From Pseudomonadota bacterium (GTDB lineage: Bacteria > Pseudomonadota > Gammaproteobacteria > Steroidobacterales > MnTg04), in assembly GCA_022572885.1 (NCBI GenBank), contig JACZVC010000026.1, positions 1-41,565 of the forward strand: a stretch of 41,565 nt of DNA, read 5' to 3'. The position numbers and the translations under genes are program-made. Below are positions 13,644 through 16,035 of the stretch, one piece after another (position 1 is the stretch's first letter; each line of letters begins with the position of its first letter). The notes under the pieces are model-generated. The model made no database searches. It was not told where the DNA came from and worked only from the letters and a program-made list of their open reading frames with translations.

Positions 13644-14504
13644 TTATTCGTTCAGCCTGACCGCGCGGTCTGGTGGCCGGTCGTTGACGCGTTGGCTTCC
13701 TTTCGCAGCAGCCCAGCCGACCAGTACATACCGCGTTCCTGACAACGTCGGTTTCGCCGCGTGCAGGTATCGATGATCCGACGGGAAACAAGCCAGCATG
13801 CCGGCCTCCGGGCGTATACGAAAACCGAAATGCGGGAAATCGAGTTCGCCGCCGGTAAAATCATTGTTCAGGTAAAGCAACAGGCTGTAATCCCTGTCCA
13901 TCCCACGTGACCATTTTCGTTTCGATGCAGTCCAGTTGTCCGCATCGGAATGCGGCTCGTAGTGCCCGCCCTTGTGATAACGAAGTATCTCCGGGCATTC
14001 GAACCATTCGAGCTCGGTCGAGTAGAATGGCTGCACCTCATGAAGAAAAATATCGCTTACCAGGGAATTGACATGATCGTTGATCCCCGCGATATCCACA
14101 TACTCGGTAATCCTCGCGGTCGACTCACGGGTCGCAGCCTGTCCTGATTCCCGCACAACCTCACTTTGGATCGTGGATTTCTCCCCACCCTGTCGATTCG
14201 CATAATCAACGATGAACTGACACTGCGCCGGATCCAGGTATTTCTTGATAATCAATATCCCCGGCGGCACCAAACCCCGGGTTGCCACGATCCCGGGTGG
14301 CTGGTCGGCACAATAAAGCGCTTGTTTTTGCGGCGTATCGAGACCATCACGGATGTACCCCAGCTCGTTGTAGTCGGGAGTCGCTCTCGCGGTGGCTGCT
14401 TTGACGCTTGCCGCAGCCTGATTTCCTGCGCAGCAGTGCTTGTAACGCCTCCCGCTGCCACAGGGGCAAGGATCGTTTCTGCGAGGCATGGGTTGACTGG
14501 ACAT
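13644..14504 (-). CDS. SEC-C motif plus Fe(II)/2-oxoglutarate prolyl-4-hydroxylase-like protein
   Basis: A 286-residue protein from the ATG at 14504; another in-frame start lies at 14576 and neither has a clear ribosome site. Residues 9-25 (RNDPCPCGSGRRYKHCC) are an SEC-C zinc motif. Residues about 85-265 form a P4H-type double-stranded beta-helix with Fe ligands His185 and Asp187 (HSD), a distal His248 (RYLHAAKP) and the 2-oxoglutarate-binding Arg258 (GTRYVL). The substrate is unknown; the SEC-C tag may mediate binding to protein or ribosome-linked partners, which is inference. It is convergent with the cytochrome gene and divergent from fic. Confidence 0.82.
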   Translation of the reverse strand: MSSQPMPRRNDPCPCGSGRRYKHCCAGNQAAASVKAATARATPDYNELGYIRDGLDTPQKQALYCADQPPGIVATRGLVPPGILIIKKYLDPAQCQFIVDYANRQGGEKSTIQSEVVRESGQAATRESTARITEYVDIAGINDHVNSLVSDIFLHEVQPFYSTELEWFECPEILRYHKGGHYEPHSDADNWTASKRKWSRGMDRDYSLLLYLNNDFTGGELDFPHFGFRIRPEAGMLACFPSDHRYLHAAKPTLSGTRYVLVGWAAAKGSQRVNDRPPDRAVRLNE

Positions 14505-14690
14505 GGGGATCGCTGGGTGGCGGCAACAAGTAGTCATCATAACAAAGCAGAAACCGGGCTCGAGCGTCATCGACAAATGCCTGGTTCGCAGGTCTGTATC
14601 GCGTCAGCGGCCACATTGTTTAACATAATCCTGGCTGGTGATTTTCCGAAATCTCTAAGTGATTGTTTTATCTTGCCTTTTAGTTGAACA

Positions 14691-14849
14691 TGTGCAGCGT
14701 ATCGACATTTCCGTGACATATGTCGAAAAAACCGATGAAAATCGACAGGTTTGCTTGATTTGTCCATTTCATCGACATATACTCAAAACATGTCGAAAAA
14801 CTTGTGAAAAATCGACATATCTACCGCATGTGTCTTTTCGATCGACACA
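14691..14849 (+). promoter_or_regulatory. Helically phased array of TGTCGA/ATCGACA operator-like boxes upstream of fic
   Basis: ATCGACA boxes begin at 14701, 14741, 14771, 14811 and 14841. Inverted TGTCGAAAAA boxes begin at 14721 and 14791. Degenerate TGTC or TGTG boxes begin at 14691, 14761 and 14831. All starts are exact multiples of 10 bp apart, and 14701-14770 and 14771-14840 are two 70-bp units whose boxes match while the spacers have diverged. Alternating orientation gives pairs such as TGTCGA-N15-TCGACA. The layout fits a protein that binds cooperatively along one face of the helix. The winged helix at the C-terminus of the Fic protein encoded next is the obvious candidate binder. Confidence 0.8.
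14755..14783 (+). promoter_or_regulatory. Predicted sigma70-type promoter of fic
   Basis: A -35 hexamer TTGATT (14755-14760), a 17-bp spacer and a -10 hexamer TATACT (14778-14783). The -10 is overlapped by the box at 14771-14778, and boxes lie both upstream and in the leader. Transcription would start near 14790, leaving a leader of about 90 bases. Occupied boxes would therefore block the polymerase. Confidence 0.55.
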
Positions 14850-14880: not shown

Positions 14881-16035
14881 ATGGCCAAATTCGACCCTCA
14901 AACGCCATACAACGACCTGCCGATGCTGCCGCCAGCGGATGGCGAAATCGAAACATCCGCGATATTGAAAAAATGTATTTCGGCGCGCGTGGCGCTTGCG
15001 GAACTGAAACAGGCCGCCGAGTTAATCCCCAATGCAGCGGTCCTGGTCAATGCACTGCCGCTGATGGAAGCCCGCGCGAGTTCGGAAATCGAAAATATCG
15101 TAACCACGACGGACAAGCTTTTTGAATTTGCCGACGTCGCGGAAGACAAGGCGGACCCGGCGACAAAAGAAGCATTGCGTTATCGGCGAGCATTATTTGA
15201 AGGCAGCCGTGCCGTGCAACTGGGTTCACTCACGGTAAAGACGGCGATCGGTCTTTGCCGTACCGTCAAGAATGACAAGAAACTGGACATCCGCGATAAC
15301 AAGGGAACAAATCTCAAAAGCAGCGCCAGCCGAAAAATCATCTACACGCCACCCGAGGGGAAAAAGCTGATAGCGGAAAAACTCGCTAACTGGGAAAAAT
15401 TTCTGCACGATAAATCGAATATGGATCCACTGGTAAAAATGGCGATCCAGCATTACCAGTTTGAAGCCATTCATCCATTCAATGACGGTAACGGCCGAAC
15501 CGGCCGGATTCTGAATATCCTGTTCCTGGTCGAACAGGGGTTGCTCGATTCACCGATTCTTTATCTGAGCCGCTACATCATTCGCAAAAGAAAAGATTAT
15601 TATCGCCTGTTGCTCGAAGTAACAACCAAAAAGGCCTGGGAGCCGTGGCTGGAATTTGTCATCGAAGGCGTCGAAGAAACCTGCTTGTGGACCACCGAGA
15701 AAATCAAATCAATCCGCGAATTGATGCAACACACGAGTTTATTTATTCAAAAAAAGTTGCCGAGAATTTATTCCTGGGAGCTGAGCGAGTTGTTGTTCAA
15801 ACAACCTTACTGCAGGATCGGAAACCTGGTCGATGCAGGGATCGCCAAACGCCAGACGGCATCTGTTTATCTCAAACAGCTTTGCGATATCGGTGTACTC
15901 AAGGAAAGTAAATCCGGCCGTGAGACCTTGTTCGTACACCCGAAATATATCGATTTACTGACGGTCGAGGAAAACGTCTACATTTATTACGCCGGCATAG
16001 AAACCGAAACAGCAAGCGTCCATACCGCCGCCTAG
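14881..16035 (+). CDS. Fic-domain protein AMPylator (class II, SoFic-like) with C-terminal winged helix
   Basis: A 384-residue protein from the ATG at 14881, with AAGGAG 9 bases upstream; the frame stays open to 14659 but that part is the operator array. A Fic N-terminal domain (about 10-110) carries the inhibitory helix SxxxEN (Ser67 to Asn72, SSEIEN), so this is a class II, self-inhibited Fic. The catalytic motif HPFNDGNGRTGR begins at His198 and is intact. Residues about 310-370 (LLFKQPYCRIGNLVDAGIAK, then YLKQLCDIGVLKE) form a winged helix. The family transfers AMP from ATP to Ser, Thr or Tyr side chains. Autoregulation through the box array is a strong inference. Confidence 0.9.
   Translation: MAKFDPQTPYNDLPMLPPADGEIETSAILKKCISARVALAELKQAAELIPNAAVLVNALPLMEARASSEIENIVTTTDKLFEFADVAEDKADPATKEALRYRRALFEGSRAVQLGSLTVKTAIGLCRTVKNDKKLDIRDNKGTNLKSSASRKIIYTPPEGKKLIAEKLANWEKFLHDKSNMDPLVKMAIQHYQFEAIHPFNDGNGRTGRILNILFLVEQGLLDSPILYLSRYIIRKRKDYYRLLLEVTTKKAWEPWLEFVIEGVEETCLWTTEKIKSIRELMQHTSLFIQKKLPRIYSWELSELLFKQPYCRIGNLVDAGIAKRQTASVYLKQLCDIGVLKESKSGRETLFVHPKYIDLLTVEENVYIYYAGIETETASVHTAA

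Follow-up and report, generated by a model that had tools for sequence, protein, structure and literature searches.

A helically phased box array upstream of a SoFic AMPylase gene as a probable autoregulatory operator

We analysed a 41,565-nucleotide contig (JACZVC010000026.1 of assembly GCA_022572885.1, referred to below as the window) from a gammaproteobacterium of the Steroidobacterales, in which an array of short inverted boxes precedes a gene for a SoFic-family protein adenylyltransferase (AMPylase). The boxes, their lattice, their conservation, their position around a -10 hexamer and their covariation with a helix of the SoFic protein are established by computation. Taken together, these sequence patterns make it very probable that the array is an autoregulatory operator of the SoFic gene and that it would be read by the C-terminal winged helix of SoFic itself.

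The SoFic gene and the box array

The protein encoded downstream of the array has the Fic_N, Fic and SoFic-like_C domains in the expected order and scores 578.2 bits against the NCBIfam SoFic model NF046030 (cut-off 550). It also scores 388.3 bits against the PADLOC SoFic model, which provides a family name only. Its translation contains HPFNDGNGR, matching the catalytic motif form HPFx(D/E)GN(G/K)R (PMC2686095). The nearest solved folds are Shewanella SoFic structures (3zcn: Z 41.6, root-mean-square deviation 2.5, 362 residues aligned). In the predicted model, which has a mean predicted local distance difference test score (pLDDT) of 81.7, the C-terminal part consists of helices and two strands and includes the candidate recognition helix (Table 1). 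The newer SoFic structures 9tb0, 9tc4, 9tch and 9tcl, together with 9vjc, were matched by sequence and are absent from the fold-search matches listed (structure library dated up to 8 April 2026); DNA binding could already be visible in one of them.

Table 1. Positions of the array, the SoFic gene and related features (window coordinates unless a locus is named; > denotes TGTCGA, < denotes TCGACA)
Feature	Position	Strand	Details
Two-box unit remainder, upstream	14691-14707		degenerate > TGTGCA 14691-14696; exact < TCGACA 14702-14707
Complete 57-bp operator unit 1 (putative)	14721-14777		exact > 14721, exact < 14742, degenerate > TGTCCA 14761, exact < 14772
Complete 57-bp operator unit 2 (putative)	14791-14847		exact > 14791, exact < 14812, degenerate > TGTCTT 14831, exact < 14842; 70 bp from unit 1
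Promoter-like TTGATT-N17-TATACT	TTGATT 14755-14760, TATACT 14778-14783	+	TATACT directly after the < box at 14772
SoFic-family protein adenylyltransferase, 384 aa	14881-16032 (16035 with stop codon)	+	Fic_N, Fic, SoFic-like_C; contains the HPFNDGNGRTGR motif
Recognition helix of the C-terminal winged helix (putative DNA-reading role)	15850-15888	+	residues 324-336, starts RQTASVYLKQL
2OG-Fe(II) oxygenase with SEC-C motif	13644-14576	-	5' of the array, opposite strand
Single units, no SoFic gene found nearby	L117-L236 and L248-L254 except L154 and L166 (IMG/VR); L258, L259, L261-L269 (named phages)

The original prediction for this locus described a helically phased operator array of TGTCGA-type boxes, and the array proved more regular than it had stated. 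When the reverse box is taken as seven letters, the starts of all seven exact boxes differ by multiples of 10 bp, and these boxes and three degenerate ones, read from the sequence, occupy a single 10-bp grid. The densest 165 bp hold seven boxes, whereas 200 simulations of the whole window with an order-3 Markov model never placed more than four in such a stretch. When an order-2 model was trained on the short array region instead, at least seven boxes appeared in 22 of 3,000 runs, a weaker control because that model had learned the boxes from the array itself. The boxes alternate in orientation only when the three degenerate ones are included; the exact boxes alone do not. The two 70-bp repeats of the original prediction (14701-14770 and 14771-14840) are identical at 22 of 24 box positions and 23 of 46 spacer positions, so that boxes are conserved over spacers as proposed, although the spacer match is slightly above the 4 in 10 then given. 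A better register is 57 bp, with two complete units 70 bp apart and, from a third, a remainder of two boxes. Within the genome from which the window derives, the exact 19-bp divergent pair has two sites, both inside this array.

Conservation of the lattice in SoFic relatives

Among close relatives, all 44 loci with upstream DNA have at least three exact boxes in the 300 bp before the gene (45 genome loci, of which L039 has no upstream DNA). We extended the analysis to a pool comprising the genome loci, more distant loci, 9 of 263 plasmid records and one phage record. It contains 66 proteins with at least 50% identity, of which 62 remained once near-identical upstream regions had been removed. 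At least three exact TGTCGA-type boxes are present in the 250 bp upstream of 58 of these 62 non-redundant SoFic genes, compared with none of 60 downstream control regions (mean 0.13 boxes). The recurrence of boxes before Fic homologues, which had been put forward as a check, is therefore confirmed, and so is their phasing: of the distances between neighbouring boxes, corrected for orientation, 364 of 394 are multiples of 10. One of the four regions below three boxes, L065, uses TGTCGC instead, at spacings of 21 and 19.

A lattice of period 70, with forward boxes at 0 and 40 and reverse boxes at 21 and 51, accommodates 426 of 452 boxes in the 58 loci, and in 40 loci every box lies on it. With random placement and the best of 70 phases, 100.6 boxes fall on the lattice on average and never more than 112 (200 trials). 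The share of pairs in which neither box deviates is highest for convergent pairs 21 bp apart (112 of 125), followed by divergent pairs 19 bp apart (132 of 219) and pairs 11 bp apart (45 of 118). The consensus of the half-site context is aAtaTGTCGAtAaAa. Comparison of relatives in the same register gives an identity of 0.83 for boxes against 0.45 for spacers, with boxes ahead in all 102 pairs, although the register was fitted on the boxes and favours them. Equal conservation of spacers, named in the original prediction as the mark of plain duplication, is thus not what is found. Close relatives differ by whole units, the 97%-identical relative L001 having one 70-bp unit more than the window. 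The phase of the boxes is kept down to about 55% protein identity in both gamma- and alphaproteobacteria, and in the loci examined arrays precede fic both on chromosomes and on unrelated plasmids. Before the SoFic gene of Escherichia coli SK1144 the array extends over about 570 bp, which is very long, and its boxes are of mixed type (L237:806-1372).

Box letters co-vary with the recognition helix

We compared the recognition helix with the upstream box type at 111 Fic loci (duplicates L093 and L295 dropped), choosing for each locus the best of the 64 possible TGTNNN boxes by lattice pairs. A second group of Fic proteins, at 38-45% identity, has different boxes in nearly the same geometry. Loci with SoFic-type helices (n=70) have TGTCGA in 65 cases and no box in 5, those with R-L/I/M helices (n=21) have TGTATA in 12, those with [ST]RQTA helices (n=5) have TGTTAA in 3, and the single locus with an SGRQ helix, L065, has TGTCGC. 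Where no helix was detected by pattern, four loci have no box, one has TGTTAA and one has TGTATA. No helix class mixes box types. A Fisher test of TGTCGA against other boxes (65/0 versus 0/12) gives p 2.7e-14 with empty rows left out. The TGTATA evidence comes from 12 loci agreeing on one box, many of which have a single pair only.

The genome of the window itself has one Fic protein of each box kind. Its second Fic (L047), 43% identical to the first, is accompanied by a TGTATA pair 21 bp apart (L047:1439-1465), and two Fic proteins of one cell may use separate operators. Because the box letters co-vary with the recognition helix, which is the best evidence on this point, the Fic protein's own winged helix is the probable reader of the boxes.

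A model for self-repression

Of the 62 upstream regions of relatives, 36 have a TATACT-like hexamer immediately 3' of a TCGACA-like box, and exact TCGACATATACT is present in 18 of the 62. The promoter that the array had been predicted to straddle is present in the window, and its -10 hexamer recurs in relatives, but its -35 hexamer does not: no common -35 hexamer was seen among the SoFic upstream regions. Separately, 36 SoFic upstream regions share a ctgggTCACg block about 21-30 bp 5' of TATACT, in place of a -35 hexamer; it is perhaps the site of another factor.

In the model that we favour, SoFic dimers would read TGTCGA half-sites through their C-terminal winged helices. The strongest site would be the convergent pair 21 bp, or two helical turns, apart. 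We propose one dimer per such pair because the DNA-binding helices of the dimer of CccR, a Fic protein of Yersinia pseudotuberculosis, are 70.2 Å apart (PMC9755527), close to the length of 21 bp of B-DNA (about 71 Å by arithmetic). Within each 57-bp unit another convergent pair, spaced 11 bp, would form a weaker site, and repetition every 70 bp would align the bound proteins on one face of the DNA. Occupied units would then cover the TATACT -10 hexamer and the leader. Cooperative self-repression is the best reading of this arrangement because the boxes flank the recurrent TATACT, and through steep self-limitation it would keep a self-toxic AMPylase at low levels. Pairing across the 19-bp divergent half-sites is a possible alternative. 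The original prediction that a Fic protein reads an operator array through its winged helix thus gains from the recurrence and phasing of the boxes, the divergence of the spacers and the covariation with the helix, but its self-repressing circuit is something that we, too, infer, and the AMPylation switch that it added is a speculative possibility.

Several observations weigh against this model. The comparison of helices and boxes includes empty rows, namely 9 of the R-L/I/M loci, 2 of the [ST]RQTA loci and all 8 loci with other helices, none of which has a box pair; several of these rows look as if their upstream DNA were coding. The helix classes were drawn after inspection of the data, and the Fisher test is uncorrected for descent. 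Five SoFic-type loci have no pair of a single type (L092, L096, L237, L273 and L274); L237, like L092, mixes TGTCGA with TGTTTA, and L273 and L274 show no such boxes. The remaining upstream regions with fewer than three TGTCGA boxes are L092, L096, which has TAAACA boxes in phase, and L069, which has no explanation. The single TGTATA pair of L047 is weak when taken alone, as 27 of 100 shuffles match it if any hexamer is allowed (0 of 30 for TGTNNN only). In the relatives, 26 of the 452 boxes are off the lattice, and 19-bp divergent neighbours, the commonest spacing, may instead be the half-sites that pair in one dimer. The lack of a common -35 hexamer also counts against the model, as does a 2023 paper according to which SoFic had yet to be shown to bind DNA (PMC10628234).

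The same boxes could be read by a different, unlinked regulator for which SoFic is merely a regulated gene, and single units are indeed also found in genomes and phages without SoFic. We consider this unlikely, however, as the box letters track the Fic protein's own recognition helix, including in the two Fic paralogues of one genome, and the arrays precede fic on chromosomes and plasmids alike. In 38 of 40 whole viral records that carry a unit there is no SoFic-like C domain over the cut-off, so that whatever reads those units would be encoded by the host or belong to another kind; a host-wide factor is one possibility. The 70-bp repeat and the additional unit of L001 indicate that duplication or loss of whole units does occur. 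Nevertheless, a recent tandem duplication without function is an extremely improbable account of an array in which boxes outlast spacers, both in the window and between relatives (with the register fitted on boxes), and keep their phase over the protein identities and the two bacterial classes noted above.

Two further accounts concern the nature of the site. The consensus context of the boxes, which resembles TGTCGAtAaA...TttAtTCGACA, forms an extended inverted repeat that could pair in RNA, and the boxes might in principle be hairpins of an attenuator in the leader rather than protein sites. This is very improbable: enterobacterial arrays and phage units combine TGTCGA with TAAACA partners, leaving two positions unpaired at the same 21-bp spacing, boxes also lie 5' of the recurrent -10 hexamer, and the spacing matches the turn of DNA rather than a stem. 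We see just as little prospect for a site of partition, recombination or replication that moves together with the gene. Four SoFic genes on alphaproteobacterial plasmids do adjoin recombinase or integrase genes, and three of the four also have rep genes nearby, but in the loci examined the array sits 5' of fic on chromosomes and unrelated plasmids, with the recurrent -10 hexamer among its boxes.

Relation to known systems

SoFic and EcSofic, which belong to the same family as the protein of the window, are described as an anti-phage AMPylase that forms a dimer and is toxic on expression (PMC12249575, PMC3667792). In its sections on toxicity, the dimer and the AS1 antitoxin, the account of EcSofic makes no mention of an operator before fic (PMC12249575). 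We found no AS1-like antitoxin open reading frame (30-90 aa, starting at most 150 bp downstream) common to 13 loci when ATG and GTG starts were compared by eye.

The closest precedent is CccR, which like the SoFic locus combines a Fic domain and a C-terminal helix-turn-helix (HTH)-like domain with inverted repeats in its own promoter (PMC9755527). CccR is a type VI secretion system effector with 29% identity to SO_4266 at 45% coverage. Its repression of its own promoter was measured, whereas that of SoFic would follow from the sequence patterns described here. Its operator is one 46-nucleotide footprint over an inverted repeat, AGATAATCAT-N26-ATGATAATCT, whereas the SoFic array is instead a TGTCGA lattice of period 70 bp with other box letters. 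Another Fic protein with a winged HTH, CbFic2 of Coxiella burnetii, binds DNA and couples DNA to AMPylation and deAMPylation; the assays described used random DNA and named no specific operator (PMC10628234).

Among the matches listed in the open-licence PMC literature we found no SoFic operator, phage-borne SoFic site, 70-bp lattice or helix-box code. The original prediction that no Fic operator of this form had been described therefore applies to the form and letters of the lattice, but CccR, although distant, is a published Fic-HTH autorepressor with a footprinted inverted repeat. Fic self-repression is already known, and what appears to be new is the 70-bp lattice, its unit and the code that relates helix to box. 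Tandem half-sites that cover one face of the DNA, like the array, are also bound by the omega repressor of pSM19035, an unrelated ribbon-helix-helix protein with another repeat length. The SoFic array would give a widespread anti-phage AMPylase a concrete regulatory code of box letters, spacing, unit size and matching helix residues, and it points to a way in which a toxin that has no obvious antitoxin might be kept at a low level.

Single units in phages

Scanning IMG/VR for TGTCGA-N15-TCGACA-N13-TGTCGA returned at least 120 stretches, compared with 8, 0 and 1 for control patterns of the same boxes with another spacing, swapped orientation or a half-turn offset; the four-box unit occurs 28 times. 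Of the 127 pieces fetched from both scans (1.3 to 15 kb), only two, L154 and L166, encode SoFic. The other 125 elements (101 non-redundant) share the half-site context of SoFic loci. Where the lattice would continue in either direction, the next slots contain no exact box, and the fourth box is exact in only 27 elements. A search of 40 whole viral records for a phage-encoded reader with a SoFic-like_C domain gave three matches, of which two are SoFic itself and one is weak and below the cut-off. By our own gene calls, 53 of the 127 loci (including the two with SoFic) are intergenic, 26 lie at an edge and 48 lie inside open reading frames of at least 100 aa; many phage units are thus not plainly intergenic. 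The intergenic units lie between co-directional (25), convergent (11) or divergent (7) genes, with 10 unclassed.

With a 65-bp query from Klebsiella phage KB57, 52 records of the phage collection matched at E up to 10. Seven of them are Riemerella-type records with 18-base matches, and another is a Salmonella contig. The remaining 44, some of them GenBank/RefSeq doubles and some weak or partial matches, are phages of Klebsiella, Escherichia, Cronobacter, Salmonella and Raoultella. Querying with an E. coli array brought in further weak matches (E 0.04 to 2), in phages of Enterobacter, Erwinia and Pectobacterium, together with 23-base matches in three Microviridae records. We examined 12 named-phage elements, which were picked by query matches and are partly alike by construction. 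The phages include virulent ones, among them Vequintavirinae. All four boxes are present in ten elements, spaced 21, 19 or 20, and 11 bp apart, and two of these ten include a TAAGCA variant; KNP2 has three boxes and P8734 has two. For phage 4MG, which has a single unit, E. coli K-12 MG1655 is the recorded host.

The ten complete units agree at 0.86 in their boxes, 0.51-0.64 in their spacers and 0.28-0.29 in their flanks. All ten mix TGTCGA- and TGTTTA-type boxes like E. coli SoFic arrays, not always in the same order. Their middle spacing is 19 bp in four and 20 bp in six (L263 and L265-L269), compared with one 20-bp and 137 19-bp TGTCGA pairs at SoFic loci. On a rigid score with the middle spacing fixed at 19 bp, 4 of the 12 named phages and the Salmonella contig exceed the null maximum of 18/24; few phages pass because six have the 20-bp spacing. 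An exact four-box scan of IMG/VR with the mixed box types returned five stretches (control 0), two of which share record lengths with BIS47 and Ro1. When 5426 E. coli genomes were queried with the KB57 unit, 279 matched at E up to 10, and a SoFic gene is present in 278, figures that compare totals rather than intersected lists; the two matches that we opened both lie just upstream of fic. BLAST with one podovirus capsid protein returned 41 named records, all below 60% identity (best 29%).

One tentative explanation is that the single SoFic operator unit of phages, virulent Vequintavirinae among them, serves as a DNA decoy against the toxin. As phage DNA multiplies it would sequester SoFic, so that this AMPylating abortive-infection toxin stays on DNA. 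We regard the idea as possible yet doubtful, the more so because six of the ten complete named-phage units have a 20-bp rather than a 19-bp middle spacing. If true, the decoy would be an anti-defence element that consists of nothing but DNA. The single units would make a case for such counter-defence, or at least for a defence toxin meeting its own apparent operator on phage DNA.

Units in chromosomes without SoFic

The three-box pattern is also found in bacterial chromosomes, mostly beside SoFic. In a class sample it occurs in 12 of 369 genomes, 8 times beside SoFic, once (L102) beside an apparent decayed SoFic start and 3 times elsewhere. In a sample of relatives it occurs in 12 of 59 genomes, and of the 10 new cases 9 are beside SoFic and 1 is elsewhere. 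No SoFic over the cut-off was found in the five genomes behind L098, L102, L103, L109 and L308. In L102 an eight-box lattice (L102:1490-1700) precedes the apparent decayed gene, which we recognized in our own translation and which tblastn at 1e-5 did not detect. Three of the solo units lie near genes of other defence-like or toxin-antitoxin systems, namely an AbiEi-like gene (L098:1501-1546), an Nmad2 gene (L103:1501-1546) and a HipB/HipA-like pair (L308, around 1501); the fourth lies among neighbours of no clear type (L109, around 1501). In a Salmonella houtenae contig, six boxes precede an AbiEi/AbiEii pair (L260:2506-2700).
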